From Deltaproteobacteria bacterium HGW-Deltaproteobacteria-6 (GTDB taxonomy: Bacteria > Desulfobacterota > Syntrophia > Syntrophales > Smithellaceae), in assembly GCA_002840435.1 (NCBI GenBank), contig PHAT01000005.1, positions 224,460-288,459 of the forward strand: DNA of 64,000 bases, written 5' to 3'. A program made the translations under genes and the position numbers. Position 1 is the first letter of the stretch. Each line of letters starts with the position of its first letter. Positions 4,147 through 61,540 of this stretch are shown in pieces. The notes beneath the pieces were generated by a model. The model worked only from the letters and a program-made list of their open reading frames with translations. It was not told where the DNA came from and ran no database searches.

Positions 4147-5520
4147 ATGGGTGATTTTCAAAAAATGTATAAGGAAAAACTGGTGACCGCCGAAGAGGCG
4201 GTCAAAAAAGTGAAATCCGGCGACTGGATTGACTGGGCCATGTTCAACGGCAAACCGGTTGAACTGGACAAGGCACTGGCGGCGCGAAAGGATGAACTGA
4301 GCGATATTAAGATCATGGCAGCAGTGACCGTACCGCCGGTCCCGGAAGTCGTTCAGAAAGATCCCAAAGGCGAAGTTTTCACATACAATGACCAGCATTT
4401 CAGTTTGCTTACCCGCATCCTGCAGGAAATGTGTCAGGGCGTTTTTTATCAGCCGACTTTATATGGCGAGTCGGAACTCTATGTCACAAACGGGATGTAT
4501 GACCCGAAAAAAGCAGGTACACCGCTGCGCGACCATTTCATGGCGCAGGTCGCCCCGATGGACAAAGACGGCTACTTCAACTGGGGGCTGCACAACTCCT
4601 GCTGCTATCTGCAGGCGATCAGTTCAAAAAATATCATTCTGGAAGTCAACAATAACATCCCCTATGCATACGGCGGCAACATGGAGAGAATCCACATTTC
4701 GCAGATTCAAGCCGTGGTCGAAGGCAACAACACGGCTTTGGCGGAACTGCCCGTCGTCACCCCGTCGGAAACGGACAAAAAAATCGCCGAGCACGTCCTG
4801 GCGCATCTGAAAGACGGCGACTGCATTCAGTTGGGCATTGGCGGAATGCCGAATGTTCTGGGTAAATTGATCAGTCAATCCGATTTAAAGAATCTGGGCG
4901 GCTGGACGGAAATGCTGGTTGATGCCTATCACGATATGTGGGAAGCGGGTGTGATGAACGGAATGAAAAAGACTTTCGATCAGGGCAAAATCAACTACAC
5001 GTTCGCCCTGGGAGGGAAGCCGCTTTATGACTGGATAGACCGTAATCCCGCCCTGGCTTCCTGCAGCGTGGGATATGTCAATCACCCGACAAGACTTGCC
5101 CAGATCGACAATCTGATTTCCATCAACCAGGCTCTGCAGGTTGACCTGTATGGTCAGGTCAACGCGGAAAGTTCCGGGTTCAAACAGATTTCCGGCAACG
5201 GCGGCATGTCGGACTTCGTGCTGGGATCTTACTGGTCCAAAGGCGGCCGCAGTTTCATCTGCCTGCCTTCGACACATAAGAAGAAGGACGGCACCATCGA
5301 ATCCCGCATTGTTCCCAACTTCGATCTCGGCAGCATCACCACTGTAACCCGCCAGATGGTCAATTTCGTGGTGACCGAATATGGCGCAGTCGCCCTGAAA
5401 ACCTGCCCCACCTGGTATCGTGCGGAAAAACTGATCTCCATTGCTCATCCTGATTTCCGGGATGACCTGATCAAGGAAGCCGAAAAAAGAAAAATCTGGA
5501 GACAATCCAACAAAAAGTAA
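4147..5520 (+). CDS. Acetate/butyrate-type CoA-transferase (acetyl-CoA hydrolase/transferase family)
   Basis: A 457-residue family I CoA-transferase that moves CoA between an acyl-CoA and a free carboxylate such as acetate. It most resembles the butyryl-CoA:acetate (But) subgroup. Motifs: GIGGMPN at about 231-237, the putative catalytic Glu in GGWTEML at about residue 255, [21 protein letters not shown] and the C-terminal signature [16 protein letters not shown] precedes the ATG by six bases. It is monocistronic, ending in a strong terminator, and sits opposite a TetR gene. A likely role is acetate exchange during growth on butyrate, crotonate or similar acids, but the substrate range is not fixed by sequence. 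Confidence 0.87.
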
Positions 5521-18195: not shown

Positions 18196-18669
18196 ATGAC
18201 CAGGATACAACGAACAGTCATCCAATCAGCTATTCTTCTCCTTGTCCTGCACACCTGTCTGTCAACAGAAGCCGTTGCGGGGTCCTGCGAAAAAGCAGTC
18301 AGGGATGTGAATGTCCGGTTGTCGTCTGCAATCGACGAGCCGGAGCTCATCGAAATTCTCCGAAGCCTGAACAGCACAAACAACAAAAAACTTCCGATGA
18401 AGTTCGTGAGCAAACGGGCGGCCCGGTCACAGGGATGGAAACCCGGAAAGGATCTATGGTCCGTAAGATCCCTCCGAGGTTCAAGCATCGGCGGCGACCG
18501 GTTTAGAAACCTGGAAGGACGTCTGCCCGATCATAAATGGCGCGAGGCTGATTTGGACTACAAGGGCGGACACCGGGGCGGCAAGCGCCTTGTCTTCTCA
18601 CCAGACGGCATGCGATTTGTCACCGTGAATCACTACCAAACGTTTACGGAGGTACCACCATGCCGGTAA
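18196..18669 (+). CDS. Secreted barnase-type guanyl-preferring ribonuclease
   Basis: 157 residues: signal peptide (about 1-28), a linker, then a barnase/RNase N1-like domain (about 65-153). Seen in order: SKRAARSQGWKPGKDLW, SIGGDRFRNLEGRLP, WREADLDYKGGHRGGKRLVFS and NHYQTFTEV. These include the general-base Glu (READ), the following Arg and the general-acid His (NHY), so it should be active. It cleaves RNA outside the cell, or kills competitors if delivered. The stop overlaps the start of the inhibitor gene by ten bases, and GGAGGT for that gene lies inside this one. Confidence 0.9.
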   Translation: MTRIQRTVIQSAILLLVLHTCLSTEAVAGSCEKAVRDVNVRLSSAIDEPELIEILRSLNSTNNKKLPMKFVSKRAARSQGWKPGKDLWSVRSLRGSSIGGDRFRNLEGRLPDHKWREADLDYKGGHRGGKRLVFSPDGMRFVTVNHYQTFTEVPPCR

Positions 18670-18979: not shown

Positions 18980-20290
18980 TTATTTCTTTACAAAATGATA
19001 ATGTGAACCGAAACGTTCAAATGCAGCCTGATCCAGCCCTTCCTGATGTTCCGGGTGCGCAACGGAGATGATCAGCCGCGCCCGTTCCTGCAGGGATCGG
19101 CCGTAAAGATCCACGGCGCCGAATTCCGTGACCAGCCAGCGCACATGAGCACGCGTGGTCACCACGCCCGCGCCGGGCAGCAATACGGGGGCGATTTTGC
19201 TGATCCCTTTGTCCGTTACCGAAGGCATGGCAACAATCGCCTTGCCACCCCGGGAACGGGAGGCGCCATAAAAAAAGTCAATCTGTCCGCCCACGCCGGA
19301 GTAAAATTTTGATCCCAGGGAGTCGGCGCAGATCTGGCCGGTCAGATCAATTTGCAGCGCGGAATTTATGGCTGTCACCTTCGGGTTTTGCGCAATGACG
19401 AAAGGATCATTGGTGTAACCGACATCCATCATCAGCACCCGGGCATTCCGATGCGTGTAATCATATAAATTTTTTGAACCCAGCAGGAATGTTGCCACCA
19501 TCTTTCCCTGATCAATCGCCTTGTTGGCGCCGTTGATCACACCTTTTTCCACAAGTGGAATCACGCCGTCGGCGAACATTTCCGTGTGAATGCCCAGATT
19601 TTTGTGCGAGGCAAGCTGGGAAAGCACCGCATTGGGAATCGCGCCGATGCCCATCTGCAAAGTGGCGCCGTCTTCGATAAGCGCCGCGCAATGCCTGCCG
19701 ATGGCCGCTTCTATGGGATCGGGCTTCGCAAAATGGACCGTCTCCAGCGGGATATCATCTTCAACAAAAATATTGATTTTATCGATGGAAATAAGCGCAT
19801 CACCGAATGTGCGGGGAACATGCGGATTAATGACGGCAATGACGGTTTCAGCGATTTCCATGGCGGCCAGCGTCGCATCCACCGACGTCCCCAGAGACAC
19901 ATAACCCTGTTCGTCCGGCGGGCAGACCTGCAGCATGACCACATGGCAGGGCAGATGACCTTCACGGTAAAGTCGCTGGGTTTCCCCTAAAAACACCGGG
20001 ATGTAATCGGCATATCCCTGCTGAGTCTGCGTGCGGACATTAGGGCCGACAAAGAAAGATTCCAGTTGAAAAATGCCTTCAAACTCCGGATCTGCGTAAG
20101 GGGCCGGACCTTCCGTATGCAGATGATGAATATGAACATTCCGCAATTCATCGGCCCGTCCGCGCCGGCACATGGCGGCAACCAGACACTGCGGGGAACT
20201 GGCGACACTGCTGAGATGAATATGATTGCCTGATTTAATCACCCGCACCGCTTCGTCAGGCGTAACCGTTTTGATTTTCGTCATTCCCAT
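18980..20290 (-). CDS. 4-hydroxybutyrate-type CoA-transferase
   Basis: 436 residues from the ATG at 20290 (AAAGGA eight bases before; the frame is open upstream to 20398). A family I CoA-transferase with GIGAIPNAV, the catalytic-Glu motif GIHTEM (Glu near residue 237, matching the known Glu238 region of Clostridium aminobutyricum 4-hydroxybutyrate CoA-transferase), VTEFGAV and AHPEHQEGL. It is divergent from a 4-hydroxybutyryl-CoA dehydratase gene. Together they would activate 4-hydroxybutyrate with acetyl-CoA and dehydrate it to crotonyl-CoA. Confidence in the family is high; substrate assignment rests on the neighbour. Confidence 0.85.
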   Translation of the reverse strand: MGMTKIKTVTPDEAVRVIKSGNHIHLSSVASSPQCLVAAMCRRGRADELRNVHIHHLHTEGPAPYADPEFEGIFQLESFFVGPNVRTQTQQGYADYIPVFLGETQRLYREGHLPCHVVMLQVCPPDEQGYVSLGTSVDATLAAMEIAETVIAVINPHVPRTFGDALISIDKINIFVEDDIPLETVHFAKPDPIEAAIGRHCAALIEDGATLQMGIGAIPNAVLSQLASHKNLGIHTEMFADGVIPLVEKGVINGANKAIDQGKMVATFLLGSKNLYDYTHRNARVLMMDVGYTNDPFVIAQNPKVTAINSALQIDLTGQICADSLGSKFYSGVGGQIDFFYGASRSRGGKAIVAMPSVTDKGISKIAPVLLPGAGVVTTRAHVRWLVTEFGAVDLYGRSLQERARLIISVAHPEHQEGLDQAAFERFGSHYHFVKK

Positions 20291-20487
20291 GTTCCGCATC
20301 CTTTCCTTGACTACTATGACAAATATCATTTCATTTGACAAGTATCTTGACAGACGCCTGCTTCTGATTAATTTACTGATGATACCATAAATCATCAAGA
20401 ACGCATTTCACAATGATGGTTTCCCGGCACATCTTCAGCACGAGTAACCGCTCATTTTACCGTTCAATCAAAAAAGGAGAATTTTTC

Positions 20488-21936
20488 ATGACCATTAAAA
20501 CCAGGCAGGATTACATTGAAAGTTTGCGACGGCTGAAATTAAATCTCTGGATGTTCGGGGAAAAGATCGCGTCACCCGTGGATCATCCGATCATTATCCC
20601 TTCGATGAATGCCGTGTCCTTTACCTACGAGCTGGCCCTTGATTCGCAGTACGAAGATTTAATGACGGCAACCTCGCACCTGACGGGAAAGAAAATCAAC
20701 CGCTTTACACACATTTTTTCCAGTACGGAAGACCTTGTTAAAAAAGTGCGCCGCCAGCGAATTCTGGGGCAGAAAACCTCCTGCTGCTTTCAGCGTTGTG
20801 TGGGCATGGACGCGATGAATGCCGTCTACAGCACATCCTTTGAAATGGACGGGAAATTCGGCACATCTTATCATGAAAAATTCAAAAAATTTCTGCTGTA
20901 CGTCCAGGAGGAAAACCTCGTCGTGGACGGCGCGATGACCGACCCGAAGGGTGATCGATCGCTTGCACCCCATCAGCAAAAAGATCCGGACCTTTACCTG
21001 CACGTCGTGGAGCGGCGGCCGGACGGCATTGTGGTGCGAGGCGCAAAAGCCCATCAGACCGGCATTGTCAACTCTCATGAAATTCTCGTCATGCCGACCA
21101 TCGCCATGCAGGAAAAAGACAGGGACTATGCGGTAAGTTTTGCGGTACCGACGGACGCGCCGGGCATCGTCATGATTTTCGGCAGGCAATCCTGCGACAC
21201 GCGCAAAATGGAAGGCACGGAAATGGACGTCGGCAACAGCCGGTTCGGCGGCCATGAAGCGCTGGTGATTTTTGATAATGTTTTTATTCCCAACGAGCGC
21301 ATCTTCATGAACGGCGAAACGGAATTTGTCGGAATGATGGTGGAACGCTTTTCCGGCCATCACCGGCCTTCCTATGCCTGCAAAGTGGGCGTCGGAGATG
21401 TCCTCATCGGAGCGACTGCGCTTTCCGCCGATTACTGCGGCATCGCGAAAGCTTCGCACGTGAAGGACAAACTTGTCGAAATGACGCATTTGAATGAAAC
21501 CATTTATTCAAGCGCGCTCGCCTGCTCGACGGAAGGCTGGCAGACGCCTTCGGGAGCTTATCAGATCGACCAGATGCTGGCCAACGTCTGCAAACACAAT
21601 GTCACCCGCTTCACCTATGACATCGCGAGGCACGCTGAAGATATCGCGGGCGGCCTGATGGTGACGATGCCGTCCGAAAAAGATTTCCGGCATCCGGAAA
21701 TCGGCCGTTATATCGACAAATACTTCCAGGGCATACCGGATGTTTCAACGGAAGCCCGCATGCGGGTGCTCAGGCTCATAGAGAATCTCACGCTGGGCAC
21801 CGGCGCGGTGGGGTATCGCACGGAGTCCATGCACGGAGCGGGCTCGCCGCAGGCGCAGCGGATCATGATCGCCAGACTGGGCAATTTTGAATACAAGAAA
21901 AACCTGGCCAGGGTAATTGCAAAAATCAGGGAATAA
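20488..21936 (+). CDS. abfD: 4-hydroxybutyryl-CoA dehydratase / vinylacetyl-CoA isomerase
   Basis: 482 residues (C. aminobutyricum AbfD is about 490). An FAD and [4Fe-4S] enzyme that turns 4-hydroxybutyryl-CoA into crotonyl-CoA by a ketyl-radical route. The four cluster ligands are recognisable: Cys100 and Cys104 in CCFQRC, His291/292 and Cys298 in SGHHRPSYAC, with the same seven-residue His-Cys gap as AbfD. FAD-site stretches such as AHQTG and the C-terminal ENLTLGTGAVGYR are present. AAGGAG sits eight bases before ATG 20488; the upstream open frame is not coding. Oxygen-sensitive, so this suggests an anaerobe growing on 4-hydroxybutyrate, GABA or succinate-derived acids. Confidence 0.93.
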   Translation: MTIKTRQDYIESLRRLKLNLWMFGEKIASPVDHPIIIPSMNAVSFTYELALDSQYEDLMTATSHLTGKKINRFTHIFSSTEDLVKKVRRQRILGQKTSCCFQRCVGMDAMNAVYSTSFEMDGKFGTSYHEKFKKFLLYVQEENLVVDGAMTDPKGDRSLAPHQQKDPDLYLHVVERRPDGIVVRGAKAHQTGIVNSHEILVMPTIAMQEKDRDYAVSFAVPTDAPGIVMIFGRQSCDTRKMEGTEMDVGNSRFGGHEALVIFDNVFIPNERIFMNGETEFVGMMVERFSGHHRPSYACKVGVGDVLIGATALSADYCGIAKASHVKDKLVEMTHLNETIYSSALACSTEGWQTPSGAYQIDQMLANVCKHNVTRFTYDIARHAEDIAGGLMVTMPSEKDFRHPEIGRYIDKYFQGIPDVSTEARMRVLRLIENLTLGTGAVGYRTESMHGAGSPQAQRIMIARLGNFEYKKNLARVIAKIRE

Positions 21937-22025: not shown

Positions 22026-22832
22026 TCAGTCTAACCGCCCTTTTAAAAACTCCCGCATATCGTGGGACAGTTGGCCGGCTTTTTCCAGAAGAATCGCGTG
22101 GCCGCAATTTTCGTAAATGATCATCTTTGCTTTGGGCAGCGTCCATCGGAAATCTTCCGCAAGCGGTATCGGAAAAATCGGATCATCCTTGCCTAAAATG
22201 ATCATCGTCGGCTGTGTGATATTCTGAGCCCGGCTGTTATTGTCAAATGCGTTGCAGGCGGCGAACTGCCGCATAAAGGCTTTTAGCGGCTGCGGATTCT
22301 TCATCCGTAAAGCGACGGCCTGATCCAGAATATCCGGGCATTTCTCAGCAAATCCCGGCGCCGTCATCAGAGTCAAATCCGTACGATAAACCTGTTCGGC
22401 TGGTTTACCGGCTATGGCCACGGCCGTCTTCACCCAGAAAGGTTTACCCAGTTCCAGAGACCGGGCGCCGCCCATGCTTGTTGCAATCAGAATCAGGCGG
22501 TTAACCCTGTCAGGATAAGACCGAGCGATCTCCTGGGAAATAAAACCGCCCATGGAAAGCCCCGCCACATGGGCATTTTCAATGCCCAGCGCTTTCTGCA
22601 ATTCCACCGCATCAGAGGCCATTAAGGAAATCGAGTATTCCCCGTCCGGTTTGTCGCTTTGACCGATGCCCCGGTTATCCAATGCAATCACCCGAAAATC
22701 TTTGGCCAGTTCCTGAATTTGCGCGAACCATAAATCCATGGGAAAAGCCAGGCCATTGATGAGCATCAGCGGTTCGCCCTTTCCCTGCTCTTCATAATAA
22801 ATTTTGATTCCGTTGACTGTTTGATGCGGCAT
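22026..22832 (-). CDS. Alpha/beta hydrolase (3-oxoadipate enol-lactonase-like)
   Basis: 268 residues from the ATG at 22832 (AAGG seven bases before). Catalytic triad: Ser in GLSMGG (about residue 92), Asp in GKDDPIFP and His in CGHAIL. Oxyanion region LINGLAF. The closest general type is the PcaD/BioH-like carboxylesterase group. It lies immediately downstream of the thiolase on the same strand, but a strong terminator lies between, so it is probably transcribed separately or by read-through. Substrate unknown. Confidence 0.85.
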   Translation of the reverse strand: MPHQTVNGIKIYYEEQGKGEPLMLINGLAFPMDLWFAQIQELAKDFRVIALDNRGIGQSDKPDGEYSISLMASDAVELQKALGIENAHVAGLSMGGFISQEIARSYPDRVNRLILIATSMGGARSLELGKPFWVKTAVAIAGKPAEQVYRTDLTLMTAPGFAEKCPDILDQAVALRMKNPQPLKAFMRQFAACNAFDNNSRAQNITQPTMIILGKDDPIFPIPLAEDFRWTLPKAKMIIYENCGHAILLEKAGQLSHDMREFLKGRLD

Positions 22833-22864
22833 CAGAATACCTTCCGCTCCCCGGGAAAATAAGC

Positions 22865-22894
22865 AAAAAAATCCCCCGCAGTCGCCTGCGGGGG
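22865..22894 (-). terminator. Terminator after the thiolase gene
   Basis: Nine-base GC-rich perfect stem (22873-22881 with 22886-22894), four-base loop, then an A/T run read as T on the minus strand. It lies inside the open frame upstream of the hydrolase start, supporting the start at 22832. Confidence 0.88.
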
Positions 22895-22914
22895 TCATGA
22901 AGAACAAGAATTAT

Positions 22915-24204
22915 TTAAACGGCTTCAATGGCAATGGCCATTCCCTGACCGCCGCCGATGCACAAAGAGGCCAGTCCCAGGCCCACATTGCGACGTTTCA
23001 TTTCATTGGCCAGCGCAAGCACTATACGCGCACCGGAGCAGCCAACCGGATGGCCGATGGAAATGGCCGAGCCATTGACGTTGGTGACATCCCAGGGAAT
23101 GTTCAGTTCGCGCAGGCAGGCAATGGCCTGAGCGGCAAACGCTTCATTGAGTTCAAACAGGCCGTAATCCTTAATCGACGTCCCGGTGAGTCTGAGCAAT
23201 TTGCGCACCGCGGGAACAGGCCCCAATCCCATGTAAGCAGGATCGACGCCGCCGGACGCATAACCTTTAATCCGCGCCAGAGGTTTCAAGCCCAGCTGTT
23301 TGGCTTTTTCTTCGCTCATGATCAGCAGGGCCGCTGCCGCATCGTTGATGCCGGAGGCGTTGCCGGCCGTAACCGTGCCGTCCTTCTTGAAGGCTGTGTT
23401 CAACTTGGCCAGTTTCTCCATGCTGGTGTCCATGGGGCGTTCATCCGTATCAAAAATAATCGGGTTGCCCTTCTTTTGCGGGATGGCAACCGGAACAATT
23501 TCATCTTTCAAGAGGCCATTTTTCATGGCGTTGCGGGCGCGGGCGTGGCTCTCCACGCTCAGTTTATCCTGTTCCTCGCGGGTGATGCCATAGCGCGCGG
23601 CGATGTTTTCTGCTGTGATGCCCATGTGGTAGCCATAAAAGATTTCATAAAGAGCGTCAAACACCATCAGATCGACCGTTTTGCCGAAAGGCATATCCAT
23701 CCGGTGCCCCCAGCGGGCCTTGGGCAGACCGATCGGAACATCGCTCATGTTTTCCATACCGCCCGCGATCACGACTTCGCTGTCACCCGCCTTGATGCCG
23801 GCCGCGGCAAGGGCAATGGCCTTCATGCCGGAGGCGCACACCTTGTTGATGGTGAAGGCCGTCGTTTCCTTGGGAAGACCGGCGCGAATCATGGCCTGGC
23901 GGCCCACGTTCTGGCCCTGTCCCGCCCCGATGACGTTGCCGATGATGACTTCATCCACAGCGATTTCCTTGAGATTATCGTCCCACTTGTAATACTGCTG
24001 TTCGATAGAGGAAAGACCTTCGTTCTTTGCGCTATCCGGCGCATCTTCTTTGGCGTGAGCCGGCAGGGCCGGTTTAAACCCGGCTTTGATTAAAGTTTCA
24101 CGAATGACGAGCGCTCCCAAATCTTTAGCGGAAACGTCTTTCAGGGAGCCGCCGAAGGCTCCAACCGCGGTGCGCACACCGTTGACAATAACTGCATTTG
24201 ACAT
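22915..24204 (-). CDS. Acetyl-CoA acetyltransferase-type thiolase with an N-terminal insert
   Basis: 429 residues; joins or cleaves acetyl-CoA units in beta-oxidation or acetoacetyl-CoA formation. Catalytic Cys123 in NKVCASGMKA, NEAFAAQA, the His motif GHPVGCSGAR and the second Cys in CIGGGQGMA are all present. Typical thiolases have about 392 residues with the nucleophile near position 89. Here an extra 34-37 residues (about 45-80, hydrophilic) sit between the first helix and DEVIIGNV. GAGGAGGT precedes the ATG. It has its own terminator and is probably monocistronic. Confidence 0.92.
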   Translation of the reverse strand: MSNAVIVNGVRTAVGAFGGSLKDVSAKDLGALVIRETLIKAGFKPALPAHAKEDAPDSAKNEGLSSIEQQYYKWDDNLKEIAVDEVIIGNVIGAGQGQNVGRQAMIRAGLPKETTAFTINKVCASGMKAIALAAAGIKAGDSEVVIAGGMENMSDVPIGLPKARWGHRMDMPFGKTVDLMVFDALYEIFYGYHMGITAENIAARYGITREEQDKLSVESHARARNAMKNGLLKDEIVPVAIPQKKGNPIIFDTDERPMDTSMEKLAKLNTAFKKDGTVTAGNASGINDAAAALLIMSEEKAKQLGLKPLARIKGYASGGVDPAYMGLGPVPAVRKLLRLTGTSIKDYGLFELNEAFAAQAIACLRELNIPWDVTNVNGSAISIGHPVGCSGARIVLALANEMKRRNVGLGLASLCIGGGQGMAIAIEAV

Positions 24205-24371: not shown

Positions 24372-25925
24372 TTAGCCTTTGCGTCTTTCATAAACTTCCT
24401 CAAAAAGAAAGGCTGTCTCGCGGTAGGCTTTGAGGATCCGGGGATCAAAATGCTGAGGCTTGATGCGCGCATCACCATGATTGAGGATTTTGGTGGCCGT
24501 GGCATGGTCAACGGACGCTTTTTGATTCCGTCCGGTACGCAGCGTATCATACTGGTCGGCAAAGGCGGCGATTCGCGCTTCGATGGGAATGGCATCGCCC
24601 TTCAGCCCCCTCGGGTAGCCGCTGCCGTCCCATTTTTCATGGTGATTCAGGGCGATTGATTGTGCAATCAGTAAATGCGGATTGCCGCCGATAATTTTCG
24701 CTCCCCAGAGGGTATGCTTTCTGAATTCAATCCATTCCTCAGCGCTGCGGGCTTCGGTTTTCTTCAGAATGTATGAAGGAACATAAATTTTACCGACATC
24801 GTGAAGGGTTGCCTGGATGCTGATGGCATGAACAAAATCATCCTTCATGCCGAGACGTTCGGCAAGGATGCCGCAGTAATCACCGACCCGGTAGATATGA
24901 TTGCCCGTATCGTCGTCATGGGCTTCGGCGGCGCGGGCCAGCGCATAAACCGTATAATCAAAAGCTCTCACCACTTCCTGATGCTGATGCGAAAGAGAAT
25001 GGAGAAAATAGTTCTGGACAACAACCTGCTGCAGAAAATAAATATTAGAGTCGTTGATTTCCTGTCCGTAATTAACAGCCAGAATGCACAGTTCATGACT
25101 TAAATAACCAATGCCGTTCTCCACGGACATATTTCTGGCCTGGAAATTTTTTATCAGCAGCATGGCCTCCGGCATCATTTGATGACCTGCCAGTAAAAAT
25201 ATTTTGGATTTGTTTTTTTCCGGGAGCGGAATGCCGGCAAGCAGATTGAAATCCAGTTTCACCCGGTTTAATTCCTGAAAAGCGTACTCATAATGAAACC
25301 ACTGCCAGATTTGATTTTCCACCATAACGCCTACAAGCACCGACCGCGGTTTGTTGGACAAATTCGTTGTCTTTCCCACCAGCAGCTTGACAACCCGGTC
25401 AATATTCGTCTGTAAATCAAAGTGCGACGCATCGAAGGTCTCGATCATTTCCCTGCTCAACGCCGTCAGCTTATTCATCTCATGGTAAGCATTGTTGACG
25501 CTGTCGCGGATATTTTTTTGTTTCAGAAGCATTTTAATGCGGGCCAACATCTCTTCATGGTCCAGCGGTTTGAACAAATAATGATCAGCGCCGGCTTCAA
25601 TTCCCCGGATAAGATCTTCACGCGACTTCAGGGCGGACATCATCACAACGGGAATGTCCCGGAAGCGTTCATCAGCCCGAATTTGCGCACAGATGGCAAA
25701 CCCATCCGTCCCGGGCAAAATGACCCCCAAAAGGATTAAATCGACAGTTTGTCGTTCGAGAACTTCCAGCGCCTGCTGGCCGGTATTGACGCGAATCACA
25801 TCATAACCGCGCGGCGTGAGAATCGCGTCCAGCAGGACCAGTCCCGCCACGTCGCTGTCGACGCACAGGATTTGTGACTGCCTCATATTCATTGCGTAAG
25901 CATCGGTTGAACTCATAGCCAACAT
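24372..25925 (-). CDS. Receiver-HD-GYP protein, receiver lacking the phospho-acceptor Asp
   Basis: 517 residues. An N-terminal CheY-like receiver (about 17-137), a middle region (about 150-330) and a C-terminal HD-GYP domain. The HD-GYP part is complete (LHDVGKIYVP, then NHHEKWDGSGYPRGLKGD), so c-di-GMP hydrolysis is expected. In the receiver the acid pair (VDSD, D23/D25) and the Lys (FKPLD) remain, but the acceptor position reads LILLGVILPGTDG, with Gly67 (GGG codon) in place of Asp. It starts three bases after the histidine kinase stop, with GGAGTAATC as ribosome site, so the two are coupled. Confidence 0.92.
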   Translation of the reverse strand: MLAMSSTDAYAMNMRQSQILCVDSDVAGLVLLDAILTPRGYDVIRVNTGQQALEVLERQTVDLILLGVILPGTDGFAICAQIRADERFRDIPVVMMSALKSREDLIRGIEAGADHYLFKPLDHEEMLARIKMLLKQKNIRDSVNNAYHEMNKLTALSREMIETFDASHFDLQTNIDRVVKLLVGKTTNLSNKPRSVLVGVMVENQIWQWFHYEYAFQELNRVKLDFNLLAGIPLPEKNKSKIFLLAGHQMMPEAMLLIKNFQARNMSVENGIGYLSHELCILAVNYGQEINDSNIYFLQQVVVQNYFLHSLSHQHQEVVRAFDYTVYALARAAEAHDDDTGNHIYRVGDYCGILAERLGMKDDFVHAISIQATLHDVGKIYVPSYILKKTEARSAEEWIEFRKHTLWGAKIIGGNPHLLIAQSIALNHHEKWDGSGYPRGLKGDAIPIEARIAAFADQYDTLRTGRNQKASVDHATATKILNHGDARIKPQHFDPRILKAYRETAFLFEEVYERRKG

Positions 25926-25927
25926 GA

Positions 25928-28900
25928 TTACTCCGGCGACCCTGCCTGTTGTTGCCGCAGAGGCAGAAAGACTGTAAAGCAGCTGCCTTGTCCAAATTTA
26001 CTTTCAACGCTGACCGTTCCGCCGTGGAGTTCCACCAGTTGCTTGGTCAGAGACAAACCGACACCGATGCCGGCTCCCGTCTTGGAATAGGGCGATTCCA
26101 GCGTAACGAACGCCTGAAAGAGCTTGGACATATCTTCCGCCTTAATTCCGATACCCGTATCCGCAATGGCGATACTGACACACTCTTGCCGGGAAACCGG
26201 ATGGCTGGTTCTGGCCGCTTTGATATCAATTTTTCCGCCTTCATCGGTATATTTTACAGCGTTGCTCATCAGGTGAAAAAGGGCTTGTTGAATCTTCTGC
26301 TCATCCGCCTCGATGGAAACATCAGCATCCAGATCCACATCCACCGTCAGAATTTGCTTCTTTTCTTCGATTTGCAGGGCTAGCAGGCGGGTCGTTTGCG
26401 ACAACGCATTCACAATCGAAACCGATGAGAAGTTCAGTTTTATCGTTCCCGACGACGCATGGGACGCATCCAGTATTTCCGTAATGATTCTGCTGAGACT
26501 TGCCCCCGCCTCGGCAATGAAGCGGACGAATTCTTCCTGCTTTTCACTCAGTTCGCCAAACATCCGGTCTTGCAGCACTTTGGTAAAGCCAATAACCGCA
26601 TTGAGCGGTGTCTGAAATTCATGACTGATATTGGCCATAAAATCCGATTTGGCCCGGTTGGCCGCTTCCGCCGCAATCTTTGCCTTCTCCAGTTCAGCCG
26701 TGCGTTGCTTGACACGCGATTCCAAAGTTTCGGAATATTCCCGCAGGGACTGCTCGGACTGTTTGATAAGCTCCTGCGCTTTCTTTACGTCCGTTATATC
26801 GCGAATAATGGATTGAAATCCTGTGGGATTGCCCTGAGAATCCAGAATGAGACTTGCGGACAGATTCACCCGCCGCGTTTCTCTCTTCTTGGTGATGATG
26901 TCTATCTCGACATTTTTCATCATCAGACCTGTCTGCAAAACGGTCTGATAGGTATTGGATACTATTTCGGCATTTTTAGCATCGAGATATCCACTATACG
27001 GCATATTGCGCAGTTCTTCGCTGTTGTAACCTGATAACTTTACATAGGCATCGTTGACGTAGACAGCCTTACCCTGCAGATCCCTTTCAACATAGGGATC
27101 CGGAATAGTGGCAATCAGTGTCCGGGCCCGGGCTTCGCTGGCTTTAAGAGCGTCTTCCATTTTTTTGCGTTCGGTAATGTCCCGGCTCAGACCTCTAAAG
27201 CCTATTGGTTTACCGTCAGCATCTCTCATCAGGGATACGGCCATTTCAAAAATGGCCGTCGTACCGTCTTTGCGATTCACCTTGTATTGAAATTCCCTGA
27301 ACGGGCGGCCTGTTTCATAAACTTCGTTAAAAACGGCATACGTTTCCTGCGCCGAGGCTTCATCCTGCAGATCACGATTGGACATGTGCAGCAGTTCTTC
27401 ACGGGTATAACCCAGATCTTCGCAGGCTCTGTCATTAACAAAGGTGGTCATACCGGTGAGATCCGTTTCAAAGTAGGCATCACCGATGCTTTCAATAATG
27501 CTGAAATATCTGGCCTCACTCTGGAGCAGCGCGTCTTCCGCCCACTTGCGTTCCGTGATGTCCCGGGCCAGGGCGCGGAATCCAACCGGTTGCCCTTTTT
27601 CATCCCGGAGCAGGGCGCCGGAAATTTCGTTCACCCGCCGGATGCCTTGTTTGGTCAGGAATTCAGCTTCCAATCCCCTGAAAGGTCTTCCTGTTTGATA
27701 AAGGCCATTGAAAGCATGGAACAGTTTTCGTCCGGAATCTTCATCGGTTACTTCCTTGTAATTTTTACCGATTAATTCTGCCGGTGTGTAACCGAGAATG
27801 TTCGCCGCCGCCTCATTTGTAAAGGTCCAGGTTCCGGTCAAATCGAACTCCGAACAACCTTCGTTGATTTCCTCCAGAATTGTGCGGTATCGCTCGGCAT
27901 CCTGTTTTCGCTCTTCCTCTTCCTGTTTGCGCTTCGTAATGTCCCGTGAAATGCCCCGAAAACCAACCGGCTTCCCCTTTGCGTCTCGGATTAGCGACGC
28001 CGACACCTCGTTGAAATGCCGTTTGCCGTCCTTGGATATAAACTCCCACGAAATTCCTCGAGACGGGCATCCTGTCTTGTAAATCGTATTAAATTGCTCG
28101 AATAGCCCTTTTGCTGCTTCTTCATCGCCGCAATATTGCCGGTAGTTTATACCGATCAGTTCTTCGCGTGAATATCCCAGATCCCGGCATTCCGCATCAT
28201 TAACAAAGGTAAAACTGCCACGAAGATCCACTTCGAAATATCCTTCATCCATATCTTCAAGAATCGTGCGATATCGTTCTTCGCTGACCCGCAGGTTCTC
28301 CTCCATGCGTTTGCGTTCGGTAATATCCCGTGACACCCCCCGAAAACCAGCCGGCTTGCCTTGTTTATCCCGGATCGGCGCCCCTGAAATTTCGACAAAT
28401 CGTATTGCGCCGCCTTTGATGATGAAGGGCACCTCGATACCCATAAAGGGTTTTCCGCTTTGGTAAACATGAGTGTAAAGTTCCAGCATTTTTTGAGCCG
28501 TCTCCGCATCGCAGTATTGCCGGTAGTTCATGCCGATCAGCTCCTCTCTGGAATAGCCCATATGGCGGGCCATTGCATCATTGACAAACGCAAAGTTTCC
28601 TTTCAGATCGATTTCGTAATAGTTCTCTTCTGTTTCCTCCAGAAGCGTGTGGTATCGTTCTTCTTTCAGACCGATTGCGTCCTCGGTCTGCTTATACCGG
28701 GTAATATCCATGATGCTTCCAAGTAAGGCTTGCGCTCCCTGATGAATGCCGGAGCTGATCGTTTCCAAAACCCACATGATGTCGCCATTTTTCCTAACGA
28801 ATCTGTATTCGTAAGTATCCGGATTTTTCTTTTTCAAATTGCGTGCTGCGTTTTTTTTGATCAATGCCCGATCATCCGGGTGGACATGATCGAGAAAATT

Positions 28901-29206
28901 TTTGCCGGTCAGATCAGCTGCCGCATAACCGGTAAGTTTCTCATAGATGGAGCTGACATAGACAAACTTGCCTTTCTGTATCATGTATATTCCGGCTCCG
29001 ATGGAATTGATCATTTCCTCCATCCGGCCGCCCGAATCTTTAGACGGAGAAGGTTTCTTCAGCGCCTGCTTCAGGGGCTTTGGTGATAATTTCTTCAGAG
29101 ATTTGGGGGATGATTTCCCGGTGGTTTTTCCAGAAGCTTTCCCGGAAACTTTTCTGACAACCTTCCCGGCTGCAGGTCTTGCTGCCGGTTTTTTTTGCGG
29201 TGACAT
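25928..29206 (-). CDS. Soluble six-PAS sensor histidine kinase with a basic tail
   Basis: 1092 residues, no membrane segment. Residues 1-58 are a Lys/Ser/Pro/Ala-rich tail resembling histone H1. Six PAS-PAC units follow (about 61-178, then five units of about 127 residues to 813). Units 2-5 are very alike (GYSREELIG.NYRQYC and GFRG.SRDIT recur), suggesting recent tandem duplication. A coiled linker leads to HisKA (NISHEFQTPLNAVIGF, about 885) and HATPase_c (NAVKYTDEGG, DTGIGIK, GAGIGVGLSL). The phospho-His box reads HEFQTP instead of HELRTP. It probably senses a cytoplasmic ligand or redox signal and forms a unit with the HD-GYP gene downstream. Confidence 0.94.
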   Translation of the reverse strand: MSPQKKPAARPAAGKVVRKVSGKASGKTTGKSSPKSLKKLSPKPLKQALKKPSPSKDSGGRMEEMINSIGAGIYMIQKGKFVYVSSIYEKLTGYAAADLTGKNFLDHVHPDDRALIKKNAARNLKKKNPDTYEYRFVRKNGDIMWVLETISSGIHQGAQALLGSIMDITRYKQTEDAIGLKEERYHTLLEETEENYYEIDLKGNFAFVNDAMARHMGYSREELIGMNYRQYCDAETAQKMLELYTHVYQSGKPFMGIEVPFIIKGGAIRFVEISGAPIRDKQGKPAGFRGVSRDITERKRMEENLRVSEERYRTILEDMDEGYFEVDLRGSFTFVNDAECRDLGYSREELIGINYRQYCGDEEAAKGLFEQFNTIYKTGCPSRGISWEFISKDGKRHFNEVSASLIRDAKGKPVGFRGISRDITKRKQEEEERKQDAERYRTILEEINEGCSEFDLTGTWTFTNEAAANILGYTPAELIGKNYKEVTDEDSGRKLFHAFNGLYQTGRPFRGLEAEFLTKQGIRRVNEISGALLRDEKGQPVGFRALARDITERKWAEDALLQSEARYFSIIESIGDAYFETDLTGMTTFVNDRACEDLGYTREELLHMSNRDLQDEASAQETYAVFNEVYETGRPFREFQYKVNRKDGTTAIFEMAVSLMRDADGKPIGFRGLSRDITERKKMEDALKASEARARTLIATIPDPYVERDLQGKAVYVNDAYVKLSGYNSEELRNMPYSGYLDAKNAEIVSNTYQTVLQTGLMMKNVEIDIITKKRETRRVNLSASLILDSQGNPTGFQSIIRDITDVKKAQELIKQSEQSLREYSETLESRVKQRTAELEKAKIAAEAANRAKSDFMANISHEFQTPLNAVIGFTKVLQDRMFGELSEKQEEFVRFIAEAGASLSRIITEILDASHASSGTIKLNFSSVSIVNALSQTTRLLALQIEEKKQILTVDVDLDADVSIEADEQKIQQALFHLMSNAVKYTDEGGKIDIKAARTSHPVSRQECVSIAIADTGIGIKAEDMSKLFQAFVTLESPYSKTGAGIGVGLSLTKQLVELHGGTVSVESKFGQGSCFTVFLPLRQQQAGSPE

Positions 29207-29251
29207 AGCATTGTCTCCTCAATCATTTTCAATTCTAAAAAATCTGACGGG

Positions 29252-29338
29252 TCTGACCACCTGACCCACCTGACCCACCTGACTACCTGACCACCTGAAG
29301 GTGGCGCGAGGTGGCACGAGGCGGCGCAAGGTAACTTG
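29252..29338. repeat. Short tandem repeats in the kinase leader
   Basis: Two adjacent arrays: five imperfect copies of an 8-10 base unit (ctgacc[c]ac) at about 29252-29299, then three to four copies of a 10-base unit (ggtggcgcga type) at 29300-29338. They lie between the CoA-transferase/GNAT gene and the kinase start, in the expected 5' leader of the kinase. Confidence 0.75.
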
Positions 29339-29341
29339 AGA

Positions 29342-31273
29342 TCACACATGGCTCGGAGCTTTGCCTTTATGATCCTGCCCTGCCGCAACTTCACTTGCAT
29401 TATTCTGCGCTGCCAGATTAAAGCTCAAAGCCAGCGCATCCGAATCGTAAGACCGGGTGGTTTCGATCTTTGCTTTTTCAAAAACTTTTAGCATGGCCTC
29501 ATTGCGCGGCAGCACATACGCGATAAAACAGCTAATGCCCCGGTCGCGCGCGATCTTGACCAGATAGTTGAACATGAAGGAGGCAATGCCTTTTCCCTGA
29601 AATTCCTCATCGACGATAAAGGCGACTTCATACGCATCAGCATTTTTATCGTAAGCATAACGCGCTTCCCCGATAATTCTCTCGTTTCGCCCCTTTTCCA
29701 CAATAGCAACAACGGACAAAATGGTTTCGTAATCAATACTGACGTAACTTTGCATTTCCTTGTGGGGCATAACGGGCTTTGAGGCAAAATAACGGAAATA
29801 TTTTGATTCATCGGAAAAATTGTAAAACAGCCGGCGCATCATATCTTCATCAGACGGCTTGATCGGACGGATTTTGATTTCCAGACCGTCGCGCAGAGAC
29901 TTACGTGTTTCCAGCCCCGCCGGGTAATTGGCGGCATGTCGGGCGACATAAATCTGATCGGCATAAACATAATTGAGCGCTTTGGCCTGCGCCAGCAAAT
30001 CTTCCCGATGATCGGGATGGGCAATGTCGATCATCGCAATCACACGCTCCCGGATGGATTTTCCGAAAAGATTTGCGACACCGTATTCGGTGGCAATGTA
30101 TTTCACCACGCCCAGTGTGCTGTGCGGATTGTCAATATCGCAATCGTGCTTGATAACAATATTGCTTCGACCCTGCTTGTCCACGGAATTAAGCGCCACA
30201 ATTGCTTTGCCTCTTTTGGAAATGGTCGCGGCGACGGCGAAATTCAGTTTGCTTTCATAACCGGTCAGAAGATTGTCGCCGGAATGGAAGATGACCGACT
30301 CGCCGGAGATATCGATTTTTTTGACGTTCATGATGCTGATCAGACTTTTGATCCGCCGCACGACAAAGGGATTGCTGAGCCGGGCTATCGGATAAAACTC
30401 AAAGACGGGGTTGCGATCGACATACTCATACAAGGCGCGGCTGCCGTAACAATAACTGGCGGTTACAAGCCCTCCGTTATAACGGCTGCGATCCAGCGAA
30501 ATGGCGCCGGAATTAATCAGGTCAATGACCCAGTCGGAAATAACGTGCGTCACAATGCCCAGGTTTTTTTTGCCCTTCAAATGATCGGCCACCGCGGTAA
30601 AAATTTTACCGACATGCAGCACCACGGTTGCGCCGTCCTCGATCAGATTGGAGATATTCCAGCCGATCCGGTCCACGATGGCATCATAGGGTTTGTTTTC
30701 CCGCTCAATCAAAGGCAAATCGCTTTCGACCACATAGTCGAAACTGCTGATATGCAGAAATGTTTCCCCCAGAGTAACCGGCATGTTCGGATTAACTTCG
30801 GCAATGACCAGCGACGCCTGTTTAATGACAACATTGGCCACGTCAATTGAGACACCCAGAGAAACAAAACCATTTTCCCCGGGCATGGATGTTTGAATGA
30901 TCGCCACATCCACCGCCACCGCCCCGCTTAAAAAAATGTACGGCAGTTCCATCAGGTTGGCGGGAATAAAATCGACTTTGCCTTCGGCGATTTCCTTGCT
31001 GATGCTCTCGCCGATATTGAATGTCTTTAAGCGGTATTGCCGGTAATCTTTTTGAGCCGTCAGATAGTTGCCCAGCGTAATGAGCTGAATGATTTCCAGA
31101 TCGCGGATGTTGCGTGCCTCGGATCCGGCAATGGCCGCCAGAACCTTCCCCGGCGCCGCCACGCCGCTCGATACGAAAATCTTCTGTCCCGGCTTTATTT
31201 TATCCAAGACCTGATCCGTGTTGATTATCTTACTGCTGAAGTCTGAGCCAAGTCCGGTTATTCTATTAGGCAT
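29342..31273 (-). CDS. Acetyl-CoA hydrolase/transferase-fold protein fused to a GNAT acetyltransferase
   Basis: 643 residues from the ATG at 31273 (AAGGA six bases before; an earlier TTG is unlikely). Residues about 15-445 have the family I CoA-transferase fold, with SMPGENGFVSLGVSIDV, ATEYGVANLFG and AHPDHREDL conserved. Residues about 465-630 are a GNAT domain with the acetyl-CoA loop FQGKGIASFMF. The CoA-transferase active site is degraded: the segment equivalent to GIHTEM reads GIVTHV (catalytic Glu to His243), and GIGAIPN reads HVGKIFT. The first half may thus bind an acyl-CoA or act as a sensor, while the GNAT half modifies a protein or small amine. Confidence 0.88.
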   Translation of the reverse strand: MPNRITGLGSDFSSKIINTDQVLDKIKPGQKIFVSSGVAAPGKVLAAIAGSEARNIRDLEIIQLITLGNYLTAQKDYRQYRLKTFNIGESISKEIAEGKVDFIPANLMELPYIFLSGAVAVDVAIIQTSMPGENGFVSLGVSIDVANVVIKQASLVIAEVNPNMPVTLGETFLHISSFDYVVESDLPLIERENKPYDAIVDRIGWNISNLIEDGATVVLHVGKIFTAVADHLKGKKNLGIVTHVISDWVIDLINSGAISLDRSRYNGGLVTASYCYGSRALYEYVDRNPVFEFYPIARLSNPFVVRRIKSLISIMNVKKIDISGESVIFHSGDNLLTGYESKLNFAVAATISKRGKAIVALNSVDKQGRSNIVIKHDCDIDNPHSTLGVVKYIATEYGVANLFGKSIRERVIAMIDIAHPDHREDLLAQAKALNYVYADQIYVARHAANYPAGLETRKSLRDGLEIKIRPIKPSDEDMMRRLFYNFSDESKYFRYFASKPVMPHKEMQSYVSIDYETILSVVAIVEKGRNERIIGEARYAYDKNADAYEVAFIVDEEFQGKGIASFMFNYLVKIARDRGISCFIAYVLPRNEAMLKVFEKAKIETTRSYDSDALALSFNLAAQNNASEVAAGQDHKGKAPSHV

Positions 31274-31785
31274 AAGCAATCCTTGAGATATGTGCAGGCG
31301 TTCTGCCAAAAATTATTTTGAACGATACTTTATGCGGAAAAGATAGCATAAACATCTGAAAAAATCCGCCAGAACTTCATGCAGGAAACGAATCGGCAGA
31401 AATCGTGGTAAATATCGCCTTAACTTTCCTGTTCTGTACAGGCCCTGACCATCAAAGAAATGAGGGAGGGACGGGCTTTGTAAAAAAAAGTAAATAAAGT
31501 GCTGGTTGTCAACCGGGGAATGCCTTGAACATGATCCGGACCGTCAAGGAAATAGGTCTCCGATACCGTGGTGTTCTATAAAAAACGATCTCGCTCAATG
31601 AAAAAAGGACACCTTTTGGTCAGGAGATAACACCAGCAGTTTCATCTGATTTTTTCTGATAAACGACTTTCAACACCAACTTAATGTCTTCAATTGCAGC
31701 ACATTCAGTATGGTACTGGTACAGATGCCCTCCCGGGCAAACATTCAGGCGTTTTCGCGCGGCTTCACTGTGCAACCCCAAATTA
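31274..31785. other. About 510 bases without a confident gene
   Basis: It includes the upstream region of the CoA-transferase/GNAT gene and the 3' flank of the Cys-rich gene. A frame on the minus strand (31620-32066) overlaps the Cys-rich gene in another phase. Its C-terminal part looks partly protein-like, but it has no ribosome site. A small stem (AAAAGG/CCTTTT near 31600-31615) is too weak to call. Confidence 0.4.
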
Positions 31786-59734: not shown

Positions 59735-61540
59735 CTAATAAAGAGCCTGGAGCTGCTCTCCGTATTTCTTCATAACATTGTTCCTTTTGACTTTCATGGT
59801 CTGCGTCACCATCCCGTTTTCGAGCGTCAAATCCTCCGCAACAAAAAGAAATTTCTGCGGCACTTCATAGCTGCCGTAGGTTTTACGCAGATGCGCCGTA
59901 ATGTCTTTCGACAGATAATCCTGTACGGCCTGATCGGCCAGGGATTCCGCCAGGGTGGCTTTTAAAAGCGGCGAGATATTCGGATCGGCCTTCAAAACAT
60001 CAAAATTCGGCACAATCATGGCAACGTTGTAATCTCTGCCGTCGCCATACAGCATCGCATGGAGAATGTAGCGCAGCAACTTGATCTCGTTTTCAATACC
60101 TTCCGGATGAACGTACTTGCCGTTGGCCAGTTTGTATTCATCCTTGAAGCGCCCGGTAATATGCAGGAAACCGTCTTCGTCGAACCAGCCGCGGTCTCCG
60201 GTTCGAAGCCCCGAAAAGCCATTCCATTTATCCGGCATCATGATTTCTGCCGTTGCCTGGGGTTTGTTGCGATATCCCAGCATGACCTGAGGACCGTAGA
60301 CGACTACTTCGCCGTCTTTGCTGTCTTCGCCGACGCGGGATTTGTCAATAACAACATTGTGGTATTTCATCGGTTTGCCGACAGTGCCCAGCTTATTGCC
60401 CCGTGTGGGTGAATTATTGGTGATCCCTGATGCGGTTTCCGTCATGCCATAGCCATCATAAGTAGGCTGACCGATATCCTTGAAGAACAAAGCGATGTCG
60501 CGTTTCAAAAGCGCGCCGCCGGTTACAAAAAATCTCAAACTGCCGCCGAAAATATTGCGCACCTGGGAGAAAACCAGCGCATCATAATCTTTAAATTCTT
60601 TCGTTTTTTCCGGCAGGTCTCTGTTTTTAACCGCTTCCGCCACCGCGGCATCAAAAAATTGCTTTTTAACCGGATCGGCGGCAACCCCCATCATGACGTT
60701 ATCGTAAATGGTGGAGCAGATTTTGGGAACAACGGAAAGCCCGGTGGGTTTGACTTCCTGGAAATTCTGAATCAGCTTGAGCAGAGATTCGGCAAACGCG
60801 ACGCCACCGCCGCAGTGGATATAAGTGAAGAGATCGCAAGTCATGCCGAAGACATGCGCCCAGGGAAGGATAGCGACGACATGCATGGTTTCATCCAGAT
60901 TGAAAGATTCAACTCCCGATGTTGTGCTCAATGTCAGGTTTCCGTGGGATAACATAACGCCTTTCGGATCACCGGTCGTCCCAGAGGTATAGATGATGCA
61001 GGCCAGATCATTCCAGTGCGGTTTGACGGAAGGAACCGTATCTTTCCTGCCCGTTTCTTCCAGCGCCTTCATGGATTTCTCGCCGTCACCGTAAATAATG
61101 AAAATATCTTTCAGTGTGGAAATTTCATCCTTGAATTCTTTGACCTGGTCATAAATGCTCTGGTCCCGGACAAAAAGATATTTTACGGCGCCGTCAGTAA
61201 TAATGTATTGCCAGATCTTTTTGAGTTCCTTCTGGTACATGGGCACGAATGCTGCGCCCAGGCCATGAGTCGCCTGCTGGCAGATGAACCATTCCACGCT
61301 GTTGTCGATAATGACGCCCACGGATTCGCCCTTGGCTAAACCAAGTTTTTTCAGAGCGGCGCGCAGGTTATTCACTCTTTCGGCCACCTGCGTGCGGTTT
61401 TGCCACTCATATTGCCCCGAATCCGGATTCTTGACGCCAAATAATCTTTTATTTGGCCATTTGGCTACGCTCATCTCAAATAAATCGACCAGATTGTTCG
61501 GGCTTTTGTATACGTCATTCATGTCTACTTCTTTTGCCAT
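59735..61540 (-). CDS. Long-chain acyl-CoA synthetase (AMP-forming)
   Basis: 601 residues from the ATG at 61540 (GAGGTGAAAG upstream; the longer open frame is not coding). Joins fatty acids to CoA with ATP. P-loop IIYTSGTTGDPKGVMLSHGN, adenine motif DGYGMTETAS, the Asp/Arg hinge RTGDRGWFDEDGFLHITGRFKDEYKL (split) and a C-terminal Lys region VTQTMKVKRN. FACS/ACSBG type. The T-rich terminator follows; DUF1330, HPP and hydrolase genes lie upstream on the same strand. Confidence 0.93.
   Translation of the reverse strand: MAKEVDMNDVYKSPNNLVDLFEMSVAKWPNKRLFGVKNPDSGQYEWQNRTQVAERVNNLRAALKKLGLAKGESVGVIIDNSVEWFICQQATHGLGAAFVPMYQKELKKIWQYIITDGAVKYLFVRDQSIYDQVKEFKDEISTLKDIFIIYGDGEKSMKALEETGRKDTVPSVKPHWNDLACIIYTSGTTGDPKGVMLSHGNLTLSTTSGVESFNLDETMHVVAILPWAHVFGMTCDLFTYIHCGGGVAFAESLLKLIQNFQEVKPTGLSVVPKICSTIYDNVMMGVAADPVKKQFFDAAVAEAVKNRDLPEKTKEFKDYDALVFSQVRNIFGGSLRFFVTGGALLKRDIALFFKDIGQPTYDGYGMTETASGITNNSPTRGNKLGTVGKPMKYHNVVIDKSRVGEDSKDGEVVVYGPQVMLGYRNKPQATAEIMMPDKWNGFSGLRTGDRGWFDEDGFLHITGRFKDEYKLANGKYVHPEGIENEIKLLRYILHAMLYGDGRDYNVAMIVPNFDVLKADPNISPLLKATLAESLADQAVQDYLSKDITAHLRKTYGSYEVPQKFLFVAEDLTLENGMVTQTMKVKRNNVMKKYGEQLQALY

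Follow-up and report, generated by a model that had tools for sequence, protein, structure and literature searches.

The gene at positions 29342 to 31273 (minus strand) of the window, the whole stretch of 64,000 nucleotides that was analysed, encodes a protein in which a CoA-transferase fold that has lost its catalytic Glu is fused to a Pat-type GNAT acetyltransferase domain. This loss is a property of a whole clade of such fusions (clade B), beyond a single protein, but it does not extend to all members of the fusion family. By analogy with the Pat/PatZ acetyltransferases, the pseudo-CoA-transferase is, on balance, probably the regulatory module of a protein lysine acetyltransferase.

Domain organization and fold

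The fusion gene and its two domains were delimited as follows:

29342..31273, minus strand: whole fusion protein, 643 amino acids, with ATG at 31273 and AGGA directly upstream
29984..31228, minus strand: CoA-transferase-fold domain, residues 16-430, without catalytic residues (PF02550 and PF13336)
29414..29911, minus strand: Pat-type GNAT acetyltransferase domain, residues 455-620 (PF00583 and PF13302 above cut-off)

The predicted open reading frame, 29342-31309 (minus strand), has an alternative start, TTG, at 31309. The matches to PF02550 (81 bits) and PF13336 (130 bits) were likewise above the curated Pfam cut-offs, which bears out the fusion of a CoA-transferase fold with a GNAT domain that a preliminary description had read from the letters. 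The AlphaFold2 model of the fusion, based on a 44-sequence alignment, had a mean pLDDT of 85.5 and a pTM of 0.82, and its CoA-transferase part was superimposed on 3d3u with a Z-score of 44.1 over 382 residues and on the CoA-bound structure 2oas with a Z-score of 43.5 over 414 residues. By sequence, the nearest solved chains to this first part were 4-hydroxybutyrate CoA-transferases. The window protein thus has the two-domain fold of family I CoA-transferases. The model TIGR03948 (butyryl-CoA:acetate CoA-transferase) scored 148.1 bits, below its curated cut-off of 674.8. The name given to such proteins by the NCBI pipeline is, we assume, ‘bifunctional acetyl-CoA hydrolase/transferase family protein/GNAT family N-acetyltransferase’; for clade B, the annotation as a bifunctional CoA-transferase is probably wrong. 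In the plasmid collection no record spanned 80% of the fusion, the longest coverage among the 15 matches listed being residues 2-464.

Catalytic position and active-site motifs

Three segments of the CoA-transferase domain depart from those of the family:

30545..30547, minus strand: His243 in place of the catalytic Glu, aligned with Glu238 of 3gk7
30596..30616, minus strand: HVGKIFT loop, residues 220-226, replacing the flexible GIGxxPN loop (motif comparison)
30239..30262, minus strand: GYESKLNF, residues 338-345, replacing the GxGGQxDF motif, with Lys342 invariant in subclade B1

The catalytic segment of the fusion is LGIVTHV, and in the alignment with PDB chains its His (243 counted from the ATG) stands opposite Glu238 of 3gk7, the active-site residue according to the available text of PMC11659651. 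The replacement of Glu by His in GIVTHV, proposed in the preliminary description, was confirmed: both paralogs in the window keep the Glu (GGWTEML at 4147 and GIHTEMF at 18980), and His is present in all 14 sequences of the genus. As no Glu or Asp occurs at this position in any of the 122 clade B proteins either, the loss at residue 243 is not a local mutation. The neighbouring loop was also read correctly from the letters; the motif comparison gave VLHVGKIFT where QxGhG or GIGxxPN would be present in the family. The further statement that the rest of the fold is kept holds for the scaffold and fails for the active site, in which eleven further signature positions are changed.

Family I CoA-transferases are defined by a chemistry in which the catalytic Glu takes up CoA as a glutamyl-CoA thioester (PMC3180442, available text). 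Since the Glu, the flexible loop and the GGQ motif are all absent, such chemistry is very unlikely in the window protein, and since the defining Glu was looked for and is absent, this protein should not be filed as a family I CoA-transferase despite its fold. Loss of the Glu alone is no proof of inactivity, because ThnP, with Gly at this position, is reported to be active. The step from sequence and fold to ‘pseudoenzyme’ is well supported. Two CoA contacts are named for 3gk7 in the available text of PMC11659651, Gln337 and Ile216, of which the first corresponds to Lys342 and the second, conservatively, to Val221 of the window protein; because the reported contact Gln337 is replaced, a CoA-type ligand is not assured, and any sensing of acyl-CoA is putative.

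Catalytic residue across genomes

The genome from which the window comes encodes 16 proteins with the C-terminal CoA-transferase domain, six of them GNAT fusions. At the catalytic position the fusions have His (the window's protein), His, Pro, Leu and, in two cases, Glu, and the ten non-fused CoA-transferases have Glu in nine and Asp in one. A non-fused CoA-transferase of this genome (L017:1701-3095) with Asp at the place of the Glu and a GEGALPA loop possibly represents another altered site.

The comparison set was built from open frames of at least 380 amino acids, of which 217 were BLAST-positive and 189 distinct, 172 being fused and 17 non-fused; L103, L107 and L126, absent as rows, are probably identical to included ones. 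Clade labels follow the best BLAST query, subclades B1 and B2 are divided by a bit-score threshold of 540, and clade B is over-represented because the searches targeted it. In clade B, to which the window protein belongs, Glu or Asp was found in 0 of 122 proteins. Its subclade B1 (n = 51), which includes the window protein, has His in 32, Asn in 16 and Tyr in 3, and subclade B2 (n = 71) has Pro in 61, Phe in 3, Leu in 2 and Tyr, Gln, Gly, Thr and Ile in one each. Clade A fusions (n = 45) have Glu in 36, Asp in 6 and Gln in 3, and clade C fusions, so far read in this genus alone, have Leu in 5 of 5. Among non-fused relatives, drawn from the same genome, genus and order and from a few other records, Glu is present in 36 of 37 and Glu or Asp in all 37 (16 Glu and one Asp in the 17 of the set, and Glu in all of a further 20). 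Loss of the Glu across the entire fusion family, which the preliminary description had raised as a point to be checked, was therefore found throughout clade B and not in clade A, where 36 of 45 proteins keep it.

Two groups of sequences deserve mention. Three clade A proteins (L187, L193 and L197) have Gln at the Glu position and retain the GxGxxPN loop, possibly an early stage of loss. Clade C, made up of L009:1042-2907 and L201-L204, shows Leu at the Glu position, an SPGFT(S/P)E-like loop and a long branch, and represents an independent loss.

Ten more clade B proteins from Spirochaetota, at least two of them from genomes already counted, have His (8) or Asn (2). In the sample from the window's phylum, the clade B profile was matched at 1e-60 in 160 of 297 genomes among the matches listed; of these, again among the matches listed, 127 attain 1e-130, where two-domain matches fall. 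The other 33 are weaker and may be non-fused or partial, the match in G028 being a non-fused protein. Of 100 genomes sampled from Spirochaetota, the one chosen as centre among them, 10 had a window-type match above 850 bits. Among the named carriers of the closest loci are Smithella, Syntrophaceae, Spirochaetes and Syntrophomonas assemblies. Horizontal transfer of the window type between Spirochaetota and Smithellaceae is suggested by its nearest relatives outside the genus, which come from Spirochaetes (L064 and others) and share about 55-66% identity.

Phylogenetic analysis

Trees of the CoA-transferase domain were obtained after removal of the catalytic columns, with 70 and 90 representatives, by a quick search with SH-aLRT as the only support value. 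One branch (SH-aLRT 98) separates the 58 fused representatives from the 32 non-fused rows. Clade B (99), B1 (100) and B2 (100) were recovered, and clade C was also grouped; clade A is the remainder that gives rise to B and C, with one of its rows, L163, placed beside clade B. With Asp scored as acid, the presence or absence of an acid at the catalytic position changed at least three times on the tree, namely in clade B, in clade C and in a Gln pair within clade A.

Changed columns and constraint

Twelve columns (92, 218, 220, 225, 243, 298, 300, 315, 325, 341, 371 and 380) are fixed in the non-fused relatives and clade A, and a different residue is the most frequent one in B1 as well as in B2. 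The flexible loop is among them, as is a portion of the GGQ motif; at column 371 the ancestral Ser still accounts for nearly half of B2. The contrast in conservation on these columns is circular, as they were picked for that very contrast, and the claim rests on a second test with 69 columns, for which invariance among the 17 non-fused relatives was the sole criterion of choice. The majority residue was kept in 66 of the 69 columns in clade A, 52 in clade C, 47 in B2 and 42 in B1. The catalytic Glu is among the changed columns, and so are the QxGhG loop and the GGQ motif.

Near the lost motifs, B1 has newly fixed residues (Trp248, Asp333 and Lys342 at a frequency of 1.00, Asn371 at 0.93), a pattern suggestive of remodelling rather than of decay. 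In B1 and in B2 alike, variability at the twelve lost columns exceeds that of the average column, which counts against a tightly specific new ligand site, as such a site would not predict variability for all of them. In a set of 33 site columns the entropy was 1.18 in B1 against an average of 1.37, slightly more conserved, and 1.39 in B2 against 1.15, less conserved. The scaffold positions (Gly/Pro core, TEYG, AHP) are conserved while the active site is lost.

A decaying relic, in which the GNAT would be the sole useful part and the CoA-transferase half would drift, might be read from the low conservation of the lost active-site columns, but it is extremely improbable: among 14 sequences of the genus (the window's and 13 orthologs), dN/dS was 0.083 for the CoA-transferase domain, close to 0.068 for the GNAT, although with median dS above 1 and dS usable in 90 and 76 of 91 pairs, respectively, these ratios are rough. 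Invariant positions in the same sequences amount to 61% and 58%, respectively, and both domains persist in clade B loci of Syntrophaceae, Spirochaetes, Syntrophomonadaceae and SAR324 assemblies. The CoA-transferase domain is under purifying selection and not decaying, as judged from these substitution rates, and a pseudogene is disfavoured by the same ratio of 0.083.

It might also be argued that the CoA-transferase domain is still enzymatic through a rewired mechanism, either a substrate-assisted intramolecular transfer of the kind proposed for ThnP or the use of a new acid of the pocket loops, and that the protein is bifunctional. ThnP, in which Gly occupies the Glu position, is an intramolecular CoA-transferase according to the available text of PMC11659651, and clade B has gained acids in the same loops as the lost motifs, at position 226 (0.75 in B1, 0.98 in B2) and, in B1, at position 340 (0.96; Glu340 in the window protein). 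However, ThnP retains the QxGhG loop according to the same text, whereas clade B lacks its Q218 and G220 as well as the GGQ motif; position 226 is Thr, Asn or Ser in the 14 genus sequences; and residue 243 varies in clade B among His, Asn, Tyr, Pro, Phe, Leu, Thr, Ile, Gly and Gln, unlike a new nucleophile. A persisting enzyme of this kind is considered quite unlikely. His243 itself was rejected as a new nucleophile, since Asn and Tyr substitute for it within B1.

GNAT domain

Two features of the GNAT domain were located:

29582..29599, minus strand: QGKGIA loop (motif comparison)
29627..29629, minus strand: Glu549, aligned with the Glu before VAF in Streptomyces lividans Pat

QGKGIA fits the Q/RxxGxG/A motif of the acetyl-CoA (pyrophosphate) loop, and Glu549, the Glu before (V/I)AF, is presumably the general base. 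The retention of the acetyl-CoA loop, already noticed in the preliminary description, is thus upheld. By sequence, the nearest solved chain is 4nxy, the GNAT of S. lividans Pat (E-value 2.2e-25), and the modelled fold matches 4u5y, also S. lividans Pat, with a Z-score of 24.4 over 164 residues. With Pat as its closest fold and with both the loop and the Glu present, the domain is a Pat-type GNAT. The mycobacterial Pat model NF058543 matched the GNAT part alone with 78.2 bits, below its cut-off of 460. At the position of Glu549, Glu is found in 48 of 51 B1 proteins and Asp in 64 of 71 B2 proteins. In B1 the loop and the Glu are both kept, and the GNAT looks active in this subclade, judging by these motifs; with Asp at this position in B2, equal activity throughout clade B should not be assumed.

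The GNAT could instead acylate a small molecule or a protein N-terminus rather than lysines of metabolic enzymes, as GNAT substrates are diverse (PMC4964394, available text) and ribosomal-protein acetyltransferases share the fold (Z-scores 17.4-18.6). Such a substrate is thought improbable for a domain whose closest matches by sequence and fold are protein lysine acetyltransferases, among them E. coli PatZ and M. tuberculosis Rv0998 besides S. lividans Pat.

Gene neighbourhood and co-occurrence

The genes close to the fusion in the window are:

25928..29206, minus strand: six-PAS histidine kinase, 1092 amino acids, downstream neighbour (domain search)
24372..25925, minus strand: response regulator with HD domain (domain search)
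22915..24204, minus strand: thiolase, adjoining or near the fusion in 9 of the 14 genus loci examined
22026..22907, minus strand: alpha/beta hydrolase, neighbour of the fusion
20413..21936, plus strand: HpaB-type gene, between the paralogous CoA-transferase and the rest of the minus-strand genes
18980..20398, minus strand: paralogous CoA-transferase with the Glu kept, further downstream of the fusion

The HpaB-type gene is divergent from the 4-hydroxybutyrate-type CoA-transferase at 18980, and the HpaB family includes 4-hydroxybutyryl-CoA dehydratase. Short GGTCAGGTGG-type repeats lie between the fusion and the histidine kinase (29207-29341). Near the CoA-transferase, 18196-18669 (plus strand) encodes a 157-amino-acid protein with a match to the ribonuclease family PF00545, presumably barnase-type.

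The thiolase follows the fusion directly in 7 of the 14 genus loci, and in those seven the alpha/beta hydrolase comes next in six and an intact CoA-transferase in five, some of them being truncated by contig ends. In L051 and L055, as in the window, the histidine kinase and the HD response regulator are placed between the fusion and the thiolase; in L060 and L063 the kinase and the regulator follow the fusion and the sequence ends before any thiolase; and L052, L053 and L062 have a different neighbourhood. Outside the genus no neighbour was common to most loci, the most widespread cluster being large proteins, putative sensor kinases, in 20 of 80 loci.

An AMP-forming acyl-CoA ligase gene within 500 bp was found in 8 of 48 B1, 3 of 29 B2 and thus 11 of 77 clade B loci. 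Ten B1-bearing genomes contain 217 AMP-binding matches over 40.5 Mb; at this density a ligase so close is estimated to occur less than once in 48 loci. The eight B1 loci are perhaps five independent ones, as L073/L074, L077/L079 and L089/L096 look like pairs, and in 10 of the 48 the sequence on one side extends for 1 kb at most, so that neighbours are more easily missed. Ligase adjacency in clade B is retained as a hint of the targets only. As general proof of the targets it was rejected for clade A, where 1 of 20 loci had a ligase within about 6 kb, equal to the 1 of 20 of random stretches. In the window's own genome, with 39 AMP-binding matches and one sirtuin, the clade A copy L015:1636-3555 is on the same strand as a neighbouring ligase and a CoA-transferase gene. 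No link was found between the fusion and the ligase at 59735, 28 kb away, which had been proposed as its target.

Clade B occurs alongside other fusions in 10 of 10 Spirochaetota carriers against 1 of 90 other genomes, a contrast inflated by kinship and obtained with the residues of the lower-scoring fusions left unread. A fixed partnership of clades A and B was rejected, as at least 6 of 31 clade B genomes in the phylum sample are without a clear clade A match among the matches listed.

This context, together with the conserved scaffold positions, bears on a further explanation, in which the dead domain would be a scaffold only, one that senses nothing but oligomerises, or docks the GNAT to acyl-CoA enzymes such as CoA-transferases. 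The gene order seen in part of the genus, which brings together the fusion, a thiolase and an intact CoA-transferase, and the co-occurrence with other fusions in the Spirochaetota carriers, agree with it, but a pure scaffold would hardly seem to require the newly fixed B1 residues near the old pocket, and the clade B genomes without clade A argue against a fixed A-B complex as a general rule. A mere scaffold is regarded as rather unlikely.

Comparison with known acetyltransferases and CoA-transferases

Type I and type II Pat enzymes carry an inactive acyl-CoA synthetase domain that binds acetyl-CoA and is believed to control the GNAT; in Pat/PatZ it is required for GNAT activity, and its exact role is said to be incompletely understood (PMC8556138, available text). 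Like Pat/PatZ, the window protein combines a dead acyl-CoA enzyme with a Pat-type GNAT, C-terminal as in type I (PMC8556138, PMC6456759, in the parts available); unlike them, its pseudoenzyme is a CoA-transferase and not a synthetase, and the lost residue is a Glu and not a His. The Pfam search of the fusion gave CoA-transferase domains and no acyl-CoA synthetase domain, so that the defining domain of type I Pat is absent. By analogy, we think that the fusion works like type I Pat. With type III (class I-beta) acetyltransferases, including M. tuberculosis Pat, whose GNAT was matched, it shares an N-terminal sensing domain (putative here) followed by a GNAT, but the regulatory domains reviewed there are cAMP-, ACT- or NADP-binding, none being a CoA-transferase in the text available.

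The family I/Cat1 4-hydroxybutyrate and butyryl-CoA:acetate CoA-transferases (3gk7, 2oas, 3eh7, 3d3u) have the same fold, with about 31-34% identity over approximately 380-420 residues; unlike them, the window fusion is without the catalytic Glu, the QxGhG loop and the GGQ motif, and carries a fused GNAT. Among family I members ThnP has likewise lost the Glu, and differs in its reported activity and its intact loop. Clade A fusions have the same domain order as clade B and form one tree group with it, and most of them keep the Glu. No CoA-transferase class is named in the acetyltransferase classifications of PMC8556138 and PMC6456759, as far as their available text goes. A literature search over titles and the beginnings of abstracts, with most subscription journals outside its coverage, returned no description of a CoA-transferase-GNAT acetyltransferase, which does not imply its absence from print.

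Proposed function and evolution

The reading preferred here, of a pseudo-CoA-transferase that regulates a protein lysine acetyltransferase, would work as follows. The C-terminal GNAT would take acetyl (or acyl) groups from CoA and attach them to lysines of partner proteins, the likeliest partners being enzymes of acyl-CoA metabolism. The N-terminal domain would go back to a CoA-transferase of the 4-hydroxybutyrate type, joined to the GNAT at a time when the catalytic Glu was present, as it still is in most of clade A, and clade B would then have replaced the Glu and other active-site motifs. Presumably no longer able to form the glutamyl-CoA intermediate, the dead domain would have been retained as a regulatory and/or oligomerising module, whose remodelled pocket probably reads a metabolite and relays its state to the GNAT, as is thought for the synthetase domain of Pat/PatZ. 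That the domain regulates, and that it binds an acyl-CoA or an acid, may be supposed by the same parallel, and CoA sensing by it is plausible only through that analogy.

It is possible, and put forward more tentatively, that these proteins constitute a new and widespread class of lysine acetyltransferases, originating from a single fusion of a CoA-transferase with a Pat-type GNAT, with at least three independent losses of the catalytic residue, and serving as sensors of acyl-CoA or carboxylates. If so, the principle of Pat/PatZ, a dead acyl-CoA enzyme controlling an acetyltransferase, would have been reinvented convergently, and clade A would be made up of living intermediates of the transition from enzyme to sensor.

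Through protein acetylation, metabolic enzymes are believed to be coupled to the levels of acyl-CoA, and the known Pat enzymes would achieve this with an inactive acyl-CoA synthetase domain. In anaerobes, among them syntrophs that live near the energy limit, another and different kind of acyl-CoA enzyme seems to have been co-opted and inactivated. Fusions with the Glu intact and fusions without it coexist in one genome (two of the six in the window's own genome keep it), and the change from enzyme to sensor is thus directly testable.
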